Positions 12,780 through 60,273 of a stretch of DNA of 64,000 bases are shown in pieces. This DNA is from Bradyrhizobium septentrionale. GTDB taxonomy: Bacteria > Pseudomonadota > Alphaproteobacteria > Rhizobiales > Xanthobacteraceae. How positions within the stretch are numbered: the stretch's first letter is position 1; every line of letters begins with the position of its first letter. The stretch is taken from the NCBI RefSeq assembly GCF_011516645.4, contig NZ_CP088285.1, positions 3,676,501 through 3,740,500 of the forward strand, written 5' to 3'. The notes under the pieces were generated by a model. The model ran no database searches. It worked only from the letters and a program-made list of their open reading frames with translations, and was not told the origin of the DNA. A program made the translations under genes and the position numbers.

Positions 12780-12901
12780 GGTTCACTTGCTTCGCCTCTC
12801 CCGCTTGCGGGGGAGGCCGACACGCGAAGCGTGGCGGGTGGGGGCTCTCTCCGCGATATGATTCGTGGAGAGACCCCCACCCCAACCCTCCCCCGCAAGC
12901 G

Positions 12902-14085
12902 CAGGGGAATCGCATATGGATTTTTCTTGTGTTGAGGCTGAATAGGGATTCTTGAGGGAGGCAGTTTTTCGAAGGAGAAACGGCCATCTGCCTGGAAACC
13001 TGTTTTGGATCGGTTCCCGACCCCCGAGCCGGAAACGCGACGCATCGGTTGGGCGACCTGATCGTGATGATGGTCGCCGCGAGCCTGTGCGGGGCCGCGA
13101 CAGCAACCGAATTTGCGTTGTTCGCGGAGACCCGTAGGGCTGTGCTGTCTCGCCTGATCGATTACGACGTGGCCCCCAGCCACGATACTTTCTCGCGGCT
13201 TTTGCGGCTGCTGGATCCGCGGGCGTTCGAGCAGGCTTTTGCGTCGTTTGCCGCGGGTTTTGCCCGGGCGCTCGGCGAATCCAGCGGCACGACTGTGGCC
13301 ACGCCAGACGAGGTGGTCGCGCTCGACGGCAAGGCCTTGCGGCGCGCCTATGAACAAGGCCAGCAGGCCTATCCGCCGCTGACGGTCTCGGCCTTCGCCA
13401 CGCAAACCCGGCTTTGCCTTGCGGCCGCGTCGCCGACGGCGGCCGAGAACGAGATTGAGGCCGCCCTGAAGGTGATCGCGCTGATTGATCTGACTGACAA
13501 GATCGTCACGGCCGACGCGCTGCATTGCCATCGCCGGATGGCCGAGGCGGTCGTCGAACAGAATGCGGACTATGTGCTGGCGCTGAAAGGCAACCGTGGT
13601 CACTGGCACAAGGAAGCCGAGAGCCTGCTGGCACGAGCGCCCTCGCCACCGGTTGTCGAGCAGACGGAACGCGGTCATGGCCGCGACGAATGGCGGAAAG
13701 CTGAGGTGGTGCCGGTCGAGACCGCGCTGATGCCCGGCCATGCCGCCATCATCCGGATCACTTCCCGGCGTGATCGGTCCGAGCCGCTGACGCGCTTGTT
13801 CATGACCTCGCGCGTGTTCTCGCCGCAGCAGGCCCTCGACATCACGCGAGCCCATTGGCAGGTCGAGAACGGCCTGCACTGGATGCTTGATGTTCATCTC
13901 GCCGAGGATATGAACCGAGCTCGCAAGGACCACGCACCTGCCAACATCGCCATCCTCAAGCGAATCGCAAAAAATATCCTGCAGATGACCGACCCGCCGA
14001 AGGTCCCTATCAGCCACCGCATCAAAAAATGCGCATGGAACGACGACTACCTCCTCAAAGCCCTGGCCCATATGCGATAGCCCTG
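12902..14085 (+). mobile_element. ISAs1-family insertion sequence, complete
   Basis: 1184 bp. The ends form 18-bp inverted repeats with two mismatches: CAGGGGAATCGCATATGG on the left and the complement of CAGGGCTATCGCATATGG on the right. CAGGG ends are typical of ISAs1. A perfect 10-bp target duplication CCCGCAAGCG is seen at 12892-12901 and 14086-14095. It carries one transposase gene. The clean duplication indicates a fairly recent insertion. Confidence 0.92.
12986..14080 (+). CDS. ISAs1-family transposase (start codon apparently ATC)
   Basis: DDE transposase. Conserved protein homology (VPDPRAGNATHRLGDL) begins upstream of the first usable in-frame start, TTG at 13049. An AAGGAG site at 12972-12977 is correctly spaced (8 nt) from an ATC at 12986, which would be ATG in a functional copy. 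The reading frame is open from a TGA just before 12956. Catalytic residues are the first Asp in VALDGKALR, the second in TADALHCHRRM, and the Glu in HWQVENGLHWMLDV. The stop overlaps the right inverted repeat. From ATC it would be 364 aa, the normal family size; from TTG 343 aa, lacking the N-terminus. Confidence 0.85.
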   Translation: MCLETCFGSVPDPRAGNATHRLGDLIVMMVAASLCGAATATEFALFAETRRAVLSRLIDYDVAPSHDTFSRLLRLLDPRAFEQAFASFAAGFARALGESSGTTVATPDEVVALDGKALRRAYEQGQQAYPPLTVSAFATQTRLCLAAASPTAAENEIEAALKVIALIDLTDKIVTADALHCHRRMAEAVVEQNADYVLALKGNRGHWHKEAESLLARAPSPPVVEQTERGHGRDEWRKAEVVPVETALMPGHAAIIRITSRRDRSEPLTRLFMTSRVFSPQQALDITRAHWQVENGLHWMLDVHLAEDMNRARKDHAPANIAILKRIAKNILQMTDPPKVPISHRIKKCAWNDDYLLKALAHMR

Positions 14086-50656: not shown

Positions 50657-52462
50657 TTAATTCGCTGTCATGGTCATTAACAGCCGTTCAAGTGTCTCCA
50701 GGCGATCGGCTTCGCGCGGTGGCTTGTCCCAGCGCAGGCGGCTGATCCGGGGAAAGCGCATCGCGACGCCGGATTTGTGACGCGGTGAGCGCTGCAAGCC
50801 CTCGAAGGCGACTTCGAGCACCAGCCCCTGATCCGGCTCATGCACGACATGCCGCACCGGGCCGAATTTCTCGGTGGTGTTCCGGCGGACGAAGCGGTCG
50901 ATCTGCAGCAGCTCCTCGTCGGTGAAGCCGAAATAGGCCTTGCCGACCGGCACGAGTTCGTCGCCGTTATCGCCGCGGGTCCAGACCCCGAACGTGTAGT
51001 CGGAATAATAGGACGAGCGCTTGCCGTGGCCGCGCTGGGCGTACATCAGCACCGCGTCGATGATGTGCGGATCGCGTTTCCACTTCCACCACGGGCCTTT
51101 AGGGCGTCCCGGCAGATACGGTGCGTCGCGGCGCTTGAGCATCACGCCTTCGACCGCGTCGGCATCATCGCCGGCGCCGGCGCTTTTCGGATCGGCGCGC
51201 GCCGCAGCCAGTTCTTCCCAGCTCGCGAACGGGACAATCGGTGACAGATCGATGCGCGGATCGTTCAGCTTGGCGACGAAACGTTCGAGATGCTCGCGGC
51301 GTTCGACGTAGGGCAGCTCGCGCAAATCTTTTTCGTCATCGCCGAGCAGGTCGTAGGCGCGCAGATGGATCGGAAATTCCTTGATCAGCGTCGGCGAGAC
51401 CACCTTCCGGTTCAGCCGCTGCTGCAGCACGTTGAAGGTCTGCACGCGGCCCTCGCGCAGCACCAGCAATTCGCCGTCGATCGCGCCGGGAAGATGCAGC
51501 GACGGCACCAGGTCGGGGAAGCTGCCGGTGATGTCCTCGCCGGTGCGCGAATAGAGCCGCGCCTGGATGTGGCCTCGCGCATCGCGGCCGGCGACAGCCT
51601 GCACGCGGATGCCGTCCCACTTCCATTCCGCACTGAAATCGGCGGCGTCGAGATTGGCAAAATCGCTATCCTCGATCGCATGCGCCAGCATCACCGGGCG
51701 GAACGGCGTCGGATCGCGGTTGACAGGCTTGTCGCCGCGGCCCTCGAGCCAGGCGAACAGCTCGAGATAGGGCGGCGACAGGCCGGGCCACATCAGCTCG
51801 ATCTCGTGCGGATCCTTAGTCCCGAGCGCCGCCGCCGCGGTCTTCGCCAGCCGCGCGGAAATCCCGATCCGCATCGCGCCGGTGACGAGCTTCAGCAGCG
51901 CCCAGCGGCCGGTCTCGTCGAGCTCGTCCAGCCAGCGCGCCAGCTGCGCCGGCAATTCAGCCTTGCCGAGCGTGCGCAGCGTGGTGACGACGTCCGTCAG
52001 CGTCGGTGGAGGCGGGTTGTTGTGGAGGCTGGACTTGCGGCCTTCTTCACCTCTCCCGCTTGCGGGGGAGGTCGGATCGGCGGACGGCGCGTCAGCGCGG
52101 TCGGCCGATCCGGGTGGGGGCTTTTTCCGCTTGTCGATCGCGTGGAGAGACCCCCACCCCGACCCTCCCCCGCAAGCGGGAGAGGGGGAAGACTTCGGCC
52201 ACATCAGTGCGACGGTCTCGGAGAGATCGCCGACGTAATCATAGGAGTAGCCGAACAGCACCGGGTCCGCGCGTTCGGTGATCAAATCGCGGATCAATCC
52301 CGGCTTGGCGTGCTTGAACGACAGCGCGCCGGTCAGTGCTGCCAGCGCGTAGCCGCGGTCGGGGTCCGCGGTCTCACGGAAATAGGCGACCAGCAGCTTG
52401 ATCTTGTTGTTGCGGCCGGGCTCGTAGGCGAGGCGATCGAGCCGTTGGGCAAAGCGATTCAT
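50657..52462 (-). CDS. ATP-dependent DNA ligase (ligase-associated repair cluster) with in-frame repeat insert
   Basis: 601 aa. It seals nicks through a lysyl-AMP intermediate; the adenylated lysine is in AEWKWDGIR (K-x-D-G). Other nucleotidyl-transferase motifs are SRTGEDITGSFPD, IDGELLV, EGVMLKRRD, and WWKWKRDPH. An N-terminal helical DNA-binding domain precedes these. It corresponds to the PP_1105-type ligase of the Lhr-Core/MPE/Exo/Lig clusters (about 550 aa). The extra roughly 48 residues at about 91-139 (SPACGGG to SPASGRG) are a translated palindromic repeat. Its start overlaps the exonuclease stop by 4 nt. Confidence 0.93.
   Translation of the reverse strand: MNRFAQRLDRLAYEPGRNNKIKLLVAYFRETADPDRGYALAALTGALSFKHAKPGLIRDLITERADPVLFGYSYDYVGDLSETVALMWPKSSPSPACGGGSGWGSLHAIDKRKKPPPGSADRADAPSADPTSPASGRGEEGRKSSLHNNPPPPTLTDVVTTLRTLGKAELPAQLARWLDELDETGRWALLKLVTGAMRIGISARLAKTAAAALGTKDPHEIELMWPGLSPPYLELFAWLEGRGDKPVNRDPTPFRPVMLAHAIEDSDFANLDAADFSAEWKWDGIRVQAVAGRDARGHIQARLYSRTGEDITGSFPDLVPSLHLPGAIDGELLVLREGRVQTFNVLQQRLNRKVVSPTLIKEFPIHLRAYDLLGDDEKDLRELPYVERREHLERFVAKLNDPRIDLSPIVPFASWEELAAARADPKSAGAGDDADAVEGVMLKRRDAPYLPGRPKGPWWKWKRDPHIIDAVLMYAQRGHGKRSSYYSDYTFGVWTRGDNGDELVPVGKAYFGFTDEELLQIDRFVRRNTTEKFGPVRHVVHEPDQGLVLEVAFEGLQRSPRHKSGVAMRFPRISRLRWDKPPREADRLETLERLLMTMTAN
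52046..52190. repeat. Palindromic repeat (family A, copy 2) inside the ligase gene
   Basis: About 145 bp. The outer arms are CCTCTCCCGCTTGCGGGGGAGG and its complement, and the inner arms GGGTGGGGG/CCCCCACCC. A GGATCGGC/GCCGATCC hairpin lies in the left spacer. It is uninterrupted and translated in frame as part of the ligase. Confidence 0.9.
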
Positions 52463-53526
52463 GTTTCGGCCTCGCCGGCGGGCTGGGCCTCGCCGGTGAC
52501 CGCCGCCGTGTCGCCCTCATCCTCGTCGCCATAGCCGACCAGATCGAGCGGCCGCGCGGCAAGGCCCTTGCTCTTGCACCAATGCACCAGCGCGTCTTCC
52601 TGGCCGTGGGTGACCCAGATCTCGCCGGCGCCGGTCGCTGCGATCGTCGCCGTCAGCCCGTCCCAATCGGCATGATCTGATATCACCAGCGGCAGCTCGA
52701 TGGCGCCCTGCCGGGCCCGGGCGCGCACGCGCATCCAGCCCGACGCAAAGGCCGTGACCGGATCGGGAAAGCGCCGGGTCCACACATCGGCTGTCGCGCT
52801 CGGCGGCGCCAGCGTGATGGTGCCGGCAAGCTCGGCCTTCTTCATGCCGCGCGCCGGCCGGAGCTCGCCGAGCGCAATGCCCCGTTCCTGATAATAGTAC
52901 GTGATCTTCTCCATCGCGCCGTGCAGATAGATCGGCGCGTCGTAGCCGGCCTCGCGCAGGAGCGCGATCACGCGCTGCGCCTTGCCGAGCGAATAGGCGC
53001 CGACCAGGTGCGCGCGCTCCGGAAACAGTTTGACCGATGCCAGCAGCTTGTTCACTTCGCCGGCGGCGTCGCCATGGAGAAACACCGGCAGGCCAAAGGT
53101 CGCCTCTGATATGAAGACGTCGCACGGCACGAGCTCGAACGGGGCGCAGGTCGGATCGCGCGCATCCTTGTAGTCGCCGGAGGCGACGATGCGGGTGTCC
53201 TTGCAGGTGACGGAGATCTGGGCGGAGCCCAGCACATGCCCGGCGGGATGAAACGCCACCGTGACGTCGCCGAGCCTGATCTCCTCGCCGTAAGCGACGG
53301 CCTGCGTCGATCCAGCGAAATTCTCGCCATAGCGCAGCCGCATCATGTCGAGCGTTTCCCGGGTCGCGAGCACCGCGCCGTGACCGGCGCGCGCATGGTC
53401 GGAATGGCCATGCGTGATCAAGGCACGTTCGACCGGCCTGACAGGATCGATGTGGAAGCCGCCGGGCTTGCAGCAAAGCCCGGCCGGGACGGGCATCAGG
53501 ATGTCTTGCGGGCGCATGGCAGACAT
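52459..53526 (-). CDS. MBL-fold exonuclease of the ligase-associated repair cluster (Exo)
   Basis: 355 aa from ATG 53526 (or 53517). Beta-CASP-like metallo-beta-lactamase nuclease. The metal motif is ITHGHSDHARAG, with further ligands in HPAGHVLGS, ASGDYKD and SDHADWDG. This matches the 'DNA ligase-associated exonuclease' family. It lies directly upstream of, and overlaps, the ligase gene. In the known four-gene clusters Exo acts with Lig, Lhr-Core and MPE in DNA repair. Longer in-frame extensions upstream to 53712 lack homology. Confidence 0.92.
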   Translation of the reverse strand: MSAMRPQDILMPVPAGLCCKPGGFHIDPVRPVERALITHGHSDHARAGHGAVLATRETLDMMRLRYGENFAGSTQAVAYGEEIRLGDVTVAFHPAGHVLGSAQISVTCKDTRIVASGDYKDARDPTCAPFELVPCDVFISEATFGLPVFLHGDAAGEVNKLLASVKLFPERAHLVGAYSLGKAQRVIALLREAGYDAPIYLHGAMEKITYYYQERGIALGELRPARGMKKAELAGTITLAPPSATADVWTRRFPDPVTAFASGWMRVRARARQGAIELPLVISDHADWDGLTATIAATGAGEIWVTHGQEDALVHWCKSKGLAARPLDLVGYGDEDEGDTAAVTGEAQPAGEAET

Positions 53527-54575: not shown

Positions 54576-54581
54576 CCGCTT

Positions 54582-54719
54582 CACCTTCTCCCCTTGTGGG
54601 AGAAGGTGGCGCGGATGCAATCCGCGCCGGATGAGGGGTCTCCATCCGCGGAGACAGACCCCTCACCCGGCTTCAATGCTTCGCATCGAAGCCACCCTCT
54701 CCCACAAGGGGAGAGGGTG
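54582..54719. repeat. Palindromic repeat (family A variant, copy 3)
   Basis: CACCTTCTCCCCTTGTGGGAGAAGGTGGC with complement GCCACCCTCTCCCACAAGGGGAGAGGGTG, and inner arms GGATGAGGGGTC and GACCCCTCACCC. It has the same double-arm plan as the other family A copies but a different arm sequence. Confidence 0.8.
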
Positions 54720-54773
54720 CATGGTCATCTGCCGCACTCAAACTTGAGTCTACACGCTACGCATTTGCCGTGA

Positions 54774-55030: not shown

Positions 55031-55107
55031 CAAGCGTGGCAGCCCCTGCCACCTGCCGCCATTTCCTCGCACTCGACGAAACCGCCTGAACCTCCTACCT
55101 CTTGGGC

Positions 55108-57873
55108 GTGTCGACGCTCGATCTCTTTTCCGTCACGCCGTCGGAAACGGCCGATCTCTTGCCGCGCCGGTTTCGCGACTGGTTCGCCTCACGCGGCTGG
55201 TCGCCGCGCGAGCACCAGCTCGCGCTGTTGGCGAAAGCGCGCGAGGCGCGTTCCGCGCTGCTGATCGCGCCCACGGGTGCAGGCAAGACGCTGGCGGGGT
55301 TCTTGCCGACGCTGGCGGAACTGAGCGGGGAGGGACCAGTCCGTGATGTCGCTTCTCACCTCCCCCTGAAAGGGGGAGGTCGGCTCGCTCGGGCACGCAA
55401 TGGCGCACCTGCGCGGGACGGGTGGGGGTCAGCCGCGGGCGCGGAGCAAGCGGCTGCCCCCCACCCCAGCCCTCCCCCTTTCAGGGGGAGGGAGCCTGAC
55501 GATCTCGCAAGCGGAGAGGCAACGGCGTCCGCGAGATCGCGCCCCAGCCTCAGCTCCACTGGCCGCGGCGTTCGCCGCTCCGCCGGCTTGCACACGCTTT
55601 ACATCTCGCCGCTGAAAGCGCTCGCGGTCGACATCGCGCGCAACCTGGAGACGCCGGTTGCCGAGATGGGGCTCCCGATCAGGATCGAGACCCGCACCGG
55701 CGACACGCCGGTGTCGCGGCGGCAGCGGCAGCGGCGCTATCCGCCGGACATTCTGCTCACCACGCCCGAGCAACTCGCGCTGCTGCTCGCCTCCGACGAC
55801 GCGCCGTTTCTGTTCTCCTCGTTGAAGCGCATCGTGCTCGACGAGCTGCACGCACTGGTCACCTCCAAGCGCGGCGATCTGCTGTCGCTCGGGCTGGCGC
55901 GGCTCCGGACCATCGCGCCGCAGGCGCGCGCCATCGGCCTTTCGGCAACGGTGGCCGAACCTGAGCAGCTGGCGCGCTTCCTGGTGCCGCAGCCGGACGG
56001 CGAGAGCGTGTCCGCCGACGTCGTCATCGCCGGCGGCGCCGCGCCGCCGGTGGTCGAGATGCTCGACACGCGGGAGCGGCTGCCATGGTCCGGCCACAGC
56101 GCGCGCCATGCGCTGCCCGAGGTCTATGAGCTGATCAAGCGCAACAAGACCACGCTGGTGTTCGTCAACACCCGCAGCCAGGCCGAGATGCTGTTCCAGG
56201 ATCTCTGGCGCATGAATGACGACGGGCTTGCGATCGCGCTGCATCACGGCTCGCTCGACGTCGCGCAGCGCCGCAAGGTCGAGGACGCGATGGCCGCCGG
56301 CCGTCTGCGCGGCGTGGTCTGCACCTCATCGCTCGACCTCGGCGTCGACTGGGGCGATGTCGACCTCGTCATCAATATCGGCGCGCCAAAGGGCTCGTCG
56401 CGGTTGATGCAGCGGATCGGCCGCGCCAACCACCGCTTCGACGAGGCCTCGCGCGCCGTGCTGGTGCCGGCCAACCGGTTCGAGGTGCTGGAATGCCGTG
56501 TCGCGATCGATGCCATCGCCGAGAATGCGCAGGACACGCCGCCCTTGCGCTCGGGCGCGCTCGACGTGCTGGCCCAGCATGTGCTCGGCTGCGCCTGCGG
56601 CAAGCCGTTCCTGTCCGACGAACTCTATGATGAGGTCAGGACCGCGGCGCCCTATGCGTCGCTGGCGCGGACGGATTTCGACGACGTCGTCGCCTTCGTC
56701 GCGACCGGCGGCTACGCGCTGAAGACCTATGAGCGTTTCGCGCGGATCAAGCAGGACAAGCAGGGCCGCTGGCGCGTCACCAATCCCAAGGTGCGGCAGA
56801 GCTACCGCCTCAACGTCGGCACCATCGTCGAGGAGACCATGCTGAAGGTGCGGCTGGTGCGGTCACGCGCCGGCGGCACCGGATCGACCGGCGCGATCGC
56901 CCGTGGCGGCCGCATGCTCGGCGAGATCGAGGAAGTGTTCATCGAAGGCCTCGTGTCCGGCGACACGTTCGTGTTCGGCGGCGAGGTGGTGCGCTACGAG
57001 GCGCTGGTCGAGGACCAGGTCTACGTCTCCCGCGCCAATGATAAAGACGCAAAAGTGCCGTCCTATATGGGCGGCAAGTTCCCGCTCTCCACCTATCTCG
57101 CCGAGCGCGTCCGCAAATTGCTCGACAACAGCCGTGCCTGGAACGCGCTGCCGGACCAAGTGCACGACTGGCTGTCGCTGCAGCGAAAGTTCTCCCGCGT
57201 CCCCGCGGTGCGCGAACTGCTGGTGGAAACCTTTCCGCGCGGCGGCAGCCATTATCTGGTCTGCTATCCCTTCGAGGGCCGGCTCGCGCATCAGACGCTC
57301 GGCATGCTGCTGACGCGCCGGCTGGAGCGCGCCCGCGCCCGTCCGCTGGGTTTCGTCGCCAACGAATATGCGGTTGCGGTCTGGGGCGTCGGCGATCTCT
57401 CCTTCATGATCCGGCAGGGCAAGCTCGATCTCAATGCGCTGTTCGATCCCGATATGCTCGGCGACGACCTCGAGGCGTGGCTCGCGGAATCCGCGCTGAT
57501 GAAGCGGACCTTCCGCAATTGCGCCATCATTTCCGGCCTGATCGCGCGCCGCTTCACCGACGAGGAGAAGTCGCGCCGCCAGGTGCTGTTCTCGACCGAT
57601 CTGATCTACGACGTGCTGCGCAAGCACCAAGCCGACCATGTGCTGCTGCGCGCCGCGCGCGGCGATGCCGCCACAGGGTTGCTCGATCTCCGCCGCCTCA
57701 GCGACATGCTTTCGCGCATCCATGGCCGAATCACCCACAAGGCGCTCGATCGCGTTTCTCCGCTTGCCGTCCCCGCGCTGCTGGAAATCGGCCGCGAGTC
57801 AGTTTATGGCGAAGCATCCGACGAGCTCCTGGCCGAGGCGGCCGAGGAACTCGTGCGGGAGGCGACGACATAA
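55108..57873 (+). CDS. Lhr-Core-type DEXH-box DNA helicase (ligase-associated) with in-frame repeat insert
   Basis: 921 aa from GTG 55108. Superfamily 2 ATPase that moves 3' to 5' on single-stranded DNA. Walker A is APTGAGKTLAGF (about residues 53-64), motif Ia YISPLKALAVD, DEVH-like box VLDELHAL, motif III GLSATV, motif V-like SSLDLGVDWGDVD, motif VI QRIGRANHRFDEASRA. A winged-helix region and the Lhr-specific C-terminal core follow. Between motifs I and Ia lie about 46 extra residues (about 83-129; LPLKGGG to PFRGREP), a translated palindromic repeat. Followed by MPE after 37 nt. Confidence 0.93.
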   Translation: MSTLDLFSVTPSETADLLPRRFRDWFASRGWSPREHQLALLAKAREARSALLIAPTGAGKTLAGFLPTLAELSGEGPVRDVASHLPLKGGGRLARARNGAPARDGWGSAAGAEQAAAPHPSPPPFRGREPDDLASGEATASARSRPSLSSTGRGVRRSAGLHTLYISPLKALAVDIARNLETPVAEMGLPIRIETRTGDTPVSRRQRQRRYPPDILLTTPEQLALLLASDDAPFLFSSLKRIVLDELHALVTSKRGDLLSLGLARLRTIAPQARAIGLSATVAEPEQLARFLVPQPDGESVSADVVIAGGAAPPVVEMLDTRERLPWSGHSARHALPEVYELIKRNKTTLVFVNTRSQAEMLFQDLWRMNDDGLAIALHHGSLDVAQRRKVEDAMAAGRLRGVVCTSSLDLGVDWGDVDLVINIGAPKGSSRLMQRIGRANHRFDEASRAVLVPANRFEVLECRVAIDAIAENAQDTPPLRSGALDVLAQHVLGCACGKPFLSDELYDEVRTAAPYASLARTDFDDVVAFVATGGYALKTYERFARIKQDKQGRWRVTNPKVRQSYRLNVGTIVEETMLKVRLVRSRAGGTGSTGAIARGGRMLGEIEEVFIEGLVSGDTFVFGGEVVRYEALVEDQVYVSRANDKDAKVPSYMGGKFPLSTYLAERVRKLLDNSRAWNALPDQVHDWLSLQRKFSRVPAVRELLVETFPRGGSHYLVCYPFEGRLAHQTLGMLLTRRLERARARPLGFVANEYAVAVWGVGDLSFMIRQGKLDLNALFDPDMLGDDLEAWLAESALMKRTFRNCAIISGLIARRFTDEEKSRRQVLFSTDLIYDVLRKHQADHVLLRAARGDAATGLLDLRRLSDMLSRIHGRITHKALDRVSPLAVPALLEIGRESVYGEASDELLAEAAEELVREATT
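55356..55493. repeat. Palindromic repeat (family A, copy 4) inside the Lhr helicase gene
   Basis: 138 bp (46 codons). The outer arms are CACCTCCCCCTGAAAGGGGG and, complementary, CCCTCCCCCTTTCAGGGGG. The inner arms are GGGTGGGGGTCAGCCGC and GCGGCTGCCCCCCACCCC. It has the same plan as the ligase insert but is read on the other strand relative to the GGGTGGGGG arm. Confidence 0.9.
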
Positions 57874-58644: not shown

Positions 58645-60153
58645 GAGCTTGTGAGGTTTTTGCCTGTTTGGGGCGAGGCTGGGCTGGTTGTCGGTCGATG
58701 ATGGAGTTTGAGTTGACTGATTAGTTCGCTTTTACGCGGCGCGGAGGCGGATACCTTGCAAGATGTTGTTGGTGAGGGCGAACCAGAGCACGACGGCGCG
58801 GACCTTTTCGATGCCGCGCACGGTCAATTGCCGCAGGTCCCAGTTGCGCCAGCGGGCATGGATGCACTCGCAGGTCGAGCGGGTTTTGTATCGGGCCTTG
58901 CCTGCCTCGCTTGCCATCCGTGCGCGCCAAGCCAACACACCCGGACCGTCGCCGCGTCGCGGCAGGCACGGGTCTGTGCCATGCTTGGATTGCGTGGGCG
59001 GACAAAACACCTCGACACCTTCGGCATGCGCCCATTCGATGTCCTCGGCGCTGCCAAAGCCGCCGTCGACGAGATGGCGCTTGGGTAGACCGCCGGGGCG
59101 CGTACGCTGCTGCTCCAGCATCGGCCGCATCAAGCCGCGATCGGACCCGATGCTGGTAACGTTGAGCCCGGTCACGATCTGCTCGCCGGCCGCACTCGTC
59201 ACCTGCACGTTGTAAGCGGGGCGGAAGCCGCCGCCGGCCATCTTCATGACCCGTGCATCGGCGTCCGTCGTGGAGGCCCGCGGCTCTTTCGGCTTCTTGC
59301 CATTGCCACGCTTTTCTTCACGCTCTTTGCGCCGTTGCTTGATCTCGGCGAGCGCCGTCTGCGCCGCTTTCAGGCGGCCCTGGCGCTCACGCGCAGCCCG
59401 CTCTCGAGCGGCCCGAATGCGCTGATTGCTGGCATCCGAGCGTGCTTCAACCTCTCCTTTGAGGTCTTCAACCACCGCCTCAGCCTGTGCCAGATGCTTG
59501 TCCAGCGTCGCCTCGCGCCGGAATGAGGCGGCCCCGGCGCTGGCGCGGACCCGTACGCCGTCCTGGGCCAGGGTCTCCAGATCGACCAGGCCGGCCTTCG
59601 CCAGCGCCGCCAAATGCTCGCAAAGCAACCGGTCGAGCAGATCGGCGCAGCCCACCCGGAAGTCCGCCAACATGTGATAGTTCACCGATACCCCGCCGCA
59701 CAGCCAGCGGTAGGCGTCGTGGCTCTCGCAAAGGCGCTCCAGGGCACGCGCGCTGCCGACGCCCTCGCTGGTGGCTGAGAGCCACAGCGCCAGCAAAAGC
59801 CGCGGCGATGTCGCGGGGTGACCGGGGCGATCGCCGCGAGCCTTGATCCGGTCCTCCAGATCGCTCAGATCGAGCCCTTCGACATAAGACCAGATCAGGC
59901 GCACCGGATGGTCTTCCCCGATCAGACTCTCGATATCCACCGCACGCAACGCGATCTGGTCGCGTTGCGGCTCGCGCAGCCGCGGCGCCCCGCGCGCTGT
60001 CGCTTCAGCCGGCGGCTTTGCCTGCTCCGGCAAATCCCCAAACAGCTCATCGGCAGCCATCGTCGCCTCCCGCGATTCATCGTCGCCAGACAACCACATC
60101 GCACAACAATCCGGACAAATTTGCTCGGCTCCCCGCAAAAAAATCACATCCTG
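58645..60153 (-). mobile_element. IS1182-family insertion sequence
   Basis: About 1509 bp. The ends form an imperfect inverted repeat (14 of 19 match): left GAGCTTGTGAGGTTTTTGC, right complement CAGGATGTGATTTTTTTGC. TGA is present on both sides (58642-58644 and 60154-60156), a possible 3-bp target duplication. It carries one intact transposase gene. Confidence 0.8.
58732..60060 (-). CDS. IS1182-family transposase
   Basis: 442 aa from ATG 60060, behind GGGAGG. An N-terminal domain with IGEDHPVRLIWSYVEGLDLS and HPATSPRLLLALWLSAT is followed by the catalytic region: DGVRVRASAGAASF, a long charged coiled-coil stretch (residues about 190-270), TTDADARVMKMAGGGFRPAYNVQ, and a C-terminal THAR-type region (STCECIHARWRNWDLRQLTVRG). 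It appears complete. The longer open frame to 60210 runs into flanking repeat. Confidence 0.92.
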   Translation of the reverse strand: MAADELFGDLPEQAKPPAEATARGAPRLREPQRDQIALRAVDIESLIGEDHPVRLIWSYVEGLDLSDLEDRIKARGDRPGHPATSPRLLLALWLSATSEGVGSARALERLCESHDAYRWLCGGVSVNYHMLADFRVGCADLLDRLLCEHLAALAKAGLVDLETLAQDGVRVRASAGAASFRREATLDKHLAQAEAVVEDLKGEVEARSDASNQRIRAARERAARERQGRLKAAQTALAEIKQRRKEREEKRGNGKKPKEPRASTTDADARVMKMAGGGFRPAYNVQVTSAAGEQIVTGLNVTSIGSDRGLMRPMLEQQRTRPGGLPKRHLVDGGFGSAEDIEWAHAEGVEVFCPPTQSKHGTDPCLPRRGDGPGVLAWRARMASEAGKARYKTRSTCECIHARWRNWDLRQLTVRGIEKVRAVVLWFALTNNILQGIRLRAA

Positions 60154-60273
60154 TGAGGTGCGAGCGGAGCGAGCCTCGAAGGATGTACGGCCACCGCCCG
60201 GGCCGTTCATCCTTCGAGGCTCGCCGAAGAGGCTCGCACCTCAGGATGACGGGATGCGGAGCGTTGCCGCGAC

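Follow-up and report, generated by a model that had tools for sequence, protein, structure and literature searches.

Repeated palindromes in frame in the Lhr-type helicase and partner ligase of Bradyrhizobium septentrionale and its relatives

We analysed a 64,000-nucleotide stretch of Bradyrhizobium septentrionale DNA (the window; C2:3676501-3740500 of a 10.4-Mb genome whose chromosome is 9.8 Mb), in which the gene lhr carries a double-hairpin element that resembles the repetitive extragenic palindromes (REPs) of bacteria. The gene (55102..57873, plus strand, TTG start, 923 aa) was identified from its open reading frame (ORF) and NCBIfam match as a ligase-associated DNA damage response DEXH-box helicase (TIGR04121), and its product contains the Pfam domains DEAD, Helicase_C, WH_Lhr and DEAD_assoc. 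The top PDB match of the protein was M. smegmatis Lhr (5v9x); its closest relatives were from Bradyrhizobium, with a best identity of 96%. The gene belongs to a ligase-associated DNA damage response cluster (Lig, Lhr, Exo, MPE), for which TIGR04120, TIGR04121, TIGR04122 and TIGR04123 all scored above the NCBIfam curated cut-offs. The other members are a cisplatin damage response ATP-dependent DNA ligase (TIGR04120; 50657..52462, minus strand, 601 aa, from ORF and NCBIfam), a ligase-associated exonuclease (TIGR04122; about 52459..53517, minus strand) and the ligase-associated phosphoesterase PdeM (TIGR04123; 57911..58621, plus strand), the last two from NCBIfam.

The element in lhr occupies 55352..55497 on the plus strand, encodes HLPLKGGGR...PHPSPPPFRGRE and reads in frame between helicase motif I (GAGKT) and motif Ia (YISPLKAL). 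From hairpin to hairpin (CACC..GGGAG, 55357-55494) it measures exactly 138 nt, in agreement with the original prediction, which had described a 138-bp in-frame element at this place. One correction applies: because the window's loop is 150 nt longer than that of the element-free near relatives L037 and L054, 138 nt is the hairpin span and perhaps not the inserted length. Both ends are perfect hairpins (CCTCCCCCTGAAAGGGGGAGG, 55359..55379; CCTCCCCCTTTCAGGGGGAGG, 55471..55491). Between them a left inner G-rich arm (GGGTGGGGGT, 55420..55429) pairs in the RNA fold with a right inner C-rich arm (CCCCCCACCC, 55457..55466), both arms being read from the sequence; all four features lie on the plus strand. 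As RNA of 160 nt, the lhr copy was predicted to fold at -113.8 kcal/mol, whereas 200 shuffled sequences averaged -81 (z -6.6); the fold is a single long stem with two side hairpins, the arms pairing across the whole element. The insert looks like real coding sequence, and not like an assembly error or a pseudogene.

The ligase gene contains a second double-hairpin element, assigned to subfamily A (52041..52192, recorded on the plus strand, with the antisense reading SPSPACGGGSGWGS...DPTSPASGRGEE). It too is in frame, on a translated strand opposite to that of the Lhr copy. The two copies have a common architecture and different hairpins, CGCTTGCG in the ligase and CTGAAAG/CTTTCAG in lhr. That is, because the hairpins differ and the strands are opposite, the copies are not simply one event duplicated. 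The earlier claim that two genes of the repair set carry the same kind of in-frame insert was right about both genes and the shared architecture; the hairpins and the strand differ. An intergenic element of this same architecture lies between a tetratricopeptide repeat (TPR)-methyltransferase gene and lhr (54581..54725, plus strand), and a further family-A copy without an open frame through it was found at 12782..12909 (plus strand). The window holds three elements within 3.5 kb; by comparison, 20 stretches of 20 kb each, taken from all over this chromosome, contain four, none of which had an open frame through it. The gap just upstream of lhr was rich in elements in the relatives as well, with 29 hits in a 500-nt bin that 80 loci cover.

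We read the Lhr loop in 79 proteins, namely that of the window and those of 78 of 80 related loci (L070 and L100 start after motif I). A recognisable element was present in 34 and none in 45, some of the 45 with short remnants. The 34 elements comprised 13 of A-type, four F2, seven F3, five F4, two F5, one F3/F4 hybrid and two single hairpins, counts that may shift by a few given the hand-written signatures that define F2-F5 and F8; the family was assigned by eye in L055, L058, L059, L068, L076 and L078. Judged from their sequences, at least five putative hairpin families occupy this one loop; they have C-rich hairpins in common and are possibly distant kin. In a MAFFT alignment of Lhr, all 37 insert entries of at least 12 aa fell between core columns 78 and 85 of 863. 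The ligase alignment (47 proteins) had its inserts of at least 12 aa at core columns 106-107 of 565, with the sole exception of 22 aa in L035, and the ligase loop, read in 52 cases, held an element in 31, remnants in 3 and nothing in 18. Elsewhere in the cluster, the exonuclease alignment (57 proteins) showed one insert, 12 aa near the C-terminus of L046 that did not look hairpin-like by eye; the phosphoesterase alignment (80 proteins) showed one of 14 aa near the N-terminus of L072; and the methyltransferase alignment (58 proteins) showed none of at least 12 aa. Twenty Lhr proteins of other alphaproteobacterial families had 22-30 residues between the two motifs and no insert. Most element-free Lhr loops (L032-L111) keep an extra segment, STGRxVxRSGG, which was not seen in those 20 proteins and which may be an old remnant.

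A quick tree of 78 Lhr proteins, computed with the loop excluded and with 28 of its 75 inner branches under 80, needs no fewer than 26 changes to account for the eight loop states, and no fewer than 20 for the presence or absence of an insert. The sister proteins L074, L076 and L083 carry F5, the hybrid and F3, respectively. Within genomes, the families in Lhr and ligase agreed in part: all five genomes with F4 in Lhr had F4 in the ligase, the sole readable F5 genome was F5/F5, three were A/A, and the remaining combinations were mixed. This agreement fits capture of the family active in that genome. By eye, the Lhr element of L076 has a left half of type F3 joined to a right half of type F4, the ligase element of L092 is F4 followed by an F8-type half, and in L061, L063 and L078 palindromes are nested within hairpin loops. 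Such hybrids and nested palindromes suggest exchange of halves and loops. The codon phase of the hairpins was uneven, 32 of 32 in one phase in the ligase and 12 and 7 in two phases in Lhr, for rows that are not independent.

When the window's Lhr was modelled with AlphaFold from 37 sequences (mean predicted local distance difference test (pLDDT) score 76.2), residues 78-159, which join helix 62-74 to strand 165-168, came out at pLDDT below 50. M. smegmatis Lhr 5v9x has six residues at this place in a sequence alignment. The ligase model had a mean pLDDT of 40.3 and was not used. Over 11 gene pairs, the ratio of nonsynonymous to synonymous substitution (dN/dS) was 0.36-0.62 in the loop, counted with residues that flank the element, and 0.04-0.17 in the rest of Lhr, a ratio of 3.5-15. 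With a core value this low and a loop value 3.5-15 times as high, we concluded that the protein is kept and that its loop is much freer to change.

An asymmetric signature of the right half found 146 places in the own genome at no more than one mismatch, and a control pattern found 0. The in-gene count covers the 97 exact places with flanks (37 of subfamily A, 21 of B and 39 of C). Two of these 97 copies were detected in genes, both in frame, and they are the lhr and ligase copies of the window. The outcome that the original prediction had set against itself, elements common in coding regions without bias, is thus not what we observed. In 69 of the 97, no frame was open across the element and 150 nt on each side. 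A strict codon test flagged the ligase copy alone, and the rescored coding test flagged two, ligase and lhr. Three of five copies flagged by a looser reading (L158, L177 and L215) were rejected as in-gene copies on the grounds that they look intergenic in six frames by eye. Seven more (L137, L184, L196, L202, L211, L219 and L221), scoring -0.10 to -0.14, were also set aside; their open frames appear antisense or leader-like by eye. Stop codons were rejected as the cause of rarity in genes: for each of the six frames, 30-54 of the 97 copies can be read through the element without a stop, so stops inside the element are not the filter. The exact F3 signature occurs at one place in the own genome, in frame in hrpB.

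Beyond the own genome, six element models run over the relatives' loci gave 165 hits, 50 in ligase, 37 in lhr and 78 elsewhere; 66 of the last 78 had no open frame through them, and a coding-like frame was seen in none. Protein searches covered 5.8 billion proteins, with one reading frame per query and a limited length range. The window's Lhr insert retrieved 23 proteins, all Lhr by Pfam. For the ligase insert, the best 120 of 146 matches were ligases (P0030 has no Pfam match but a ligase N-terminus), and for the F4 insert of L082 the best 120 of 338 matches were 75 ligases, 44 Lhr and 1 UvrB. Scans of whole-genome DNA are independent of frame. In G144 (8 Mb), 9 matches made up 6 elements, three of them in genes, for Lhr, ligase and the N-terminal extension of UvrB. 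In G145 (7.3 Mb), 26 matches gave 15 elements read by eye, two at contig ends, and again three lay in genes (ligase, Lhr and UvrB). A DUF559 gene of this genome also ends, on its 3' side, in an F4-type half element (L297, G145:C51:64691). Five further genomes gave 13 matches: 5 in Lhr, 7 outside genes and 1 in PolA, where it separates the two nuclease domains (L341, L342 and L345 were judged by eye and a rough frame test). Because these seven genomes had been selected for an Lhr insert, Lhr has to be left aside when host bias is judged from them. In a set of 79 genomes of the window's genus that were not selected in this way, the own genome included, the exact F3 signature matched 12 times, in 10 genomes; three matches fell in Lhr, one in HrpB (the own genome) and eight outside genes. 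Leaving out Lhr and the window's ligase, the in-gene cases of the DNA scans were ligase 2, UvrB 2, PolA 1 and HrpB 1.

In two of these hosts the inserts were recognised by eye from peptide motifs. UvrB proteins, searched in 41 genomes, had hairpin-like peptides in 7 of the 30 read; the inserts lie in the N-terminal extension (L309, L324, L325, L328 and L331) or the C-terminal tail (L311, L319 and L325), and the UvrB of the window's genome has no such peptide. HrpB carried an insert at one loop in 6 of 20 proteins read from 41 searched, namely in the own genome and in G172, G181, G176, G184 and G160, the last five having been selected because their family match was broken or long. For G190 and G189, a signature that was drawn from Lhr copies, and hence favours them, gave only two matches, the Lhr copy among them. 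Such a pattern would follow if copies in genes last longer than those between genes.

With 146 places and a control of 0, the elements are dispersed, near-identical short palindromes, as are REP/REPIN-like repeats (REPIN, REP doublet forming a hairpin). The lhr copy, with its z of -6.6, and the consensus copies show the two inverted hairpins and larger fold of a REPIN-type dimer, and 95 of the 97 exact copies were not detected in a coding frame, which makes the repeats predominantly intergenic. A terminal GTAG/CGTC tag was absent from the outer-flank counts of families A and B, with inner ends judged by eye; GTAG/CTAC occurs anywhere in 10/37, 6/21 and 9/39 copies of the three subfamilies, and CGTC/GACG anywhere in 20, 18 and 23. 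Membership of the GTAG/CGTC REP superfamily was rejected for want of the terminal tag. Because neither this tag nor a flanked Y1 transposase gene was found, we file the elements as REP-like only.

Two known systems are alike in their description. RIME of Sinorhizobium and Rhizobium is about 130 bp long with two large palindromes, and its hairpin motifs are similar to those of the elements here. Rickettsia palindromic elements (RPE) have been reported in many kinds of genes, whereas the internal hosts found here were nucleic-acid enzymes only and the host organism differs. RPE are described as in-frame palindromes within likely functional proteins (PMC3733652). The same paper, on in-gene GTAG/CGTC REPs (Di Nocera et al. 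2013), is the closest precedent among the open-access papers searched. It describes short palindromic repeats that are chiefly intergenic, some in frame in genes, the hosts being skewed towards genes of replication and repair (uvrA, uvrB, recB, DNA polymerase I, dnaE2, and a DNA ligase and RNA helicases of O. terrae), and it places different REPs near the same recB site in two Xanthomonas species. Flexible linkers or loops were already proposed there as an explanation, together with the proposal that in-gene inserts modify repair and contribute to mutators. In contrast, the elements here are double hairpins of about 130 nt without terminal GTAG/CGTC tags, no fewer than five families are found repeatedly at a single loop in related genera, and the sections consulted of that paper mention neither Lhr nor HrpB nor a host from Bradyrhizobium. 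Br-REP1 and Br-REP2 come from the same genus and lie in intergenic regions and 3' untranslated regions, but their consensus is different (Br-REP1, CCGGAATCTCGAGATTCCGG; PMC5082802). Other publications deal with small repeats in intergenic and intragenic regions (PMC2229807, by its abstract), coding palindromes in nematomorph mitochondria (PMC6649704), miniature inverted-repeat transposable elements (a review, PMC10969869) and other repeats (PMC2718517). Among the open-access papers searched, none of relevance treated REPINs in Bradyrhizobium. As far as these searches show, the novelty lies in the hosts (for this group, Lhr with its partner ligase, and HrpB), in how many families share a single loop, in the pairing of partner proteins and in the rarity measured elsewhere in genes.

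Some further observations concern the copies and their surroundings. Exact copies of subfamily B (right half CCCCCATCCCGACCTTCCCC and close variants; C2) lie at 2.25-4.04 Mb in 20 of 21 cases, a range that includes the window, and at 1.53 Mb in the other. Below 3.05 Mb 10 of 10 are on the minus strand and above 3.28 Mb 8 of 11 are on the plus strand (Fisher p about 0.001, for a split chosen post hoc). Clustering around the terminus had been considered and was overturned by GC skew and the best parB hit, which suggest an origin near 2.86 Mb; the B elements seem to be centred on the origin and co-oriented with replication. Insertion sequence (IS)-like ends adjoin or interrupt elements, as read by eye: one type stands in place of the left half in six copies (L139, L143, L189, L195, L211 and L217), and a second cuts the right hairpin of the window's copy at 12782-12909 and of four others (L140, L148, L184 and L205). 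Directly downstream of the repair cluster is a transposase-like ORF (58732-60210, minus strand), which we take to be IS1182-like, with a 24-nt inverted repeat at 60169-60224.

We consider it somewhat probable that most genes are purged of REP-like elements, and that a few disordered segments in nucleic-acid enzymes tolerate, retain and exchange them. The insert would be a REP/REPIN-like, non-autonomous repeated palindrome, presumably moved by a transposase and landing in many places. Selection would remove in-gene copies except where 20-60 extra flexible residues rich in Pro, Gly, Arg and Ser are bearable, and the tolerant segments would be the Lhr motif I-Ia loop, one loop of the ligase N-domain, the UvrB tails, one HrpB loop and the PolA interdomain linker. 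The element, for which we saw no sign of removal, would be translated as a flexible, more or less neutral loop in an enzyme whose core is under strong purifying selection. In-frame copies would persist, since a deletion there would in most cases cause a frameshift, and over time they may be trimmed, eroded or swapped for other families, perhaps by recombination. Tolerance of surface inserts was one of two options in the original prediction, and it is supported by the single low-confidence loop per protein, the several families, the high loop dN/dS and the lack of any insert of at least 12 residues elsewhere in Lhr.

The other option was a process linked to the locus, such as a fragile site or local recombination, that piles elements around the repair cluster. 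The crowding of three elements into 3.5 kb of the window, compared with four in 400 kb of spread stretches, speaks for it, as does the element-rich gap before lhr in relatives. Yet uvrB, hrpB and polA lie elsewhere and bear the same kind of insert, so that no such process is needed, and the exonuclease, phosphoesterase and methyltransferase of the cluster have no internal hairpin insert; we regard this option as highly improbable. The hybrids, nested palindromes, agreement between Lhr and ligase families (F4/F4 in five of five, F5/F5 in one, A/A in three) and IS ends inside elements could also mean that each loop received one ancient element and that later families target or recombine with the palindrome there, by attraction at the DNA level and not by repeated fresh insertion. 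Against this, short loops in several lineages (L085, L096 and L111) have no visible trace of an element, element starts vary by tens of nucleotides, and the proposal does not explain why the first seed fell only in these proteins. It is a possible account, though an unlikely one.

Two more accounts give the insert a role. The inserts might lower or modulate repair or helicase activity or expression, through an mRNA hairpin or a bulky loop, and be favoured by second-order selection, for example as transient mutators (PMC3733652). The hosts Lhr, ligase, UvrB, PolA and HrpB, the strong RNA fold of the insert and the same repair-gene bias in that publication point this way. The preserved frame and a dN/dS of 0.04-0.17 in the rest of Lhr are contrary to loss of function. 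HrpB, moreover, is not known as a repair enzyme, and we hold this tuning of repair to be decidedly unlikely. Alternatively, the peptide itself could be useful as a flexible, Arg/Pro-rich nucleic-acid tether selected in nucleic-acid enzymes, the only proteins in which internal copies were found, and the uneven reading frames, in rows that are not independent, would agree. However, a loop that evolves at 3.5-15 times the dN/dS of the core, and that lacks an element in 45 of 79 Lhr and 18 of 52 ligase proteins, makes such a benefit very improbable.

Several points count against the purging and tolerance that we favour. The coding test behind the rarity in genes is imperfect, passing 36 of 37 lhr hits and 13 of 50 ligase hits; a true case, L281, scores -0.15, so the seven own-genome copies at -0.10 to -0.14 score much as weak true cases do. 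Diverged copies in genes escape exact-match scans, and 97 of the 146 places were covered. No RAYT (REP-associated tyrosine (Y1) transposase) gene flanked by the repeat was found: the six element models found nothing in the 3.3-kb locus of the only PF01797 match in the own genome. A loop dN/dS below 1 means that some constraint persists. Finally, many other proteins have disordered linkers, and beyond nucleic-acid enzymes no internal host turned up, the sole other gene being the DUF559 gene with its half element at the 3' end; tolerance alone therefore does not explain the bias to nucleic-acid enzymes. A more far-reaching proposal is that Lhr, its partner ligase, UvrB, HrpB and PolA carry lineage-wide docking segments that capture active palindrome families, with insertion or retention actively favoured through the enzymes' DNA work or second-order selection on repair, such that palindromes and repair enzymes co-evolve. 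We offer it as a speculative and rather doubtful extension.

In-frame repeated palindromes in bacterial proteins were already known. In the present case the Lhr and ligase loops have been entered by several families across related genera, and close relatives show filled, empty and exchanged states. For annotators, inserts of this kind resemble real coding sequence. For the biology of the group, these loops provide natural replicates for asking how protein sequence arises from repeats and what causes the excess of repair genes among the hosts.

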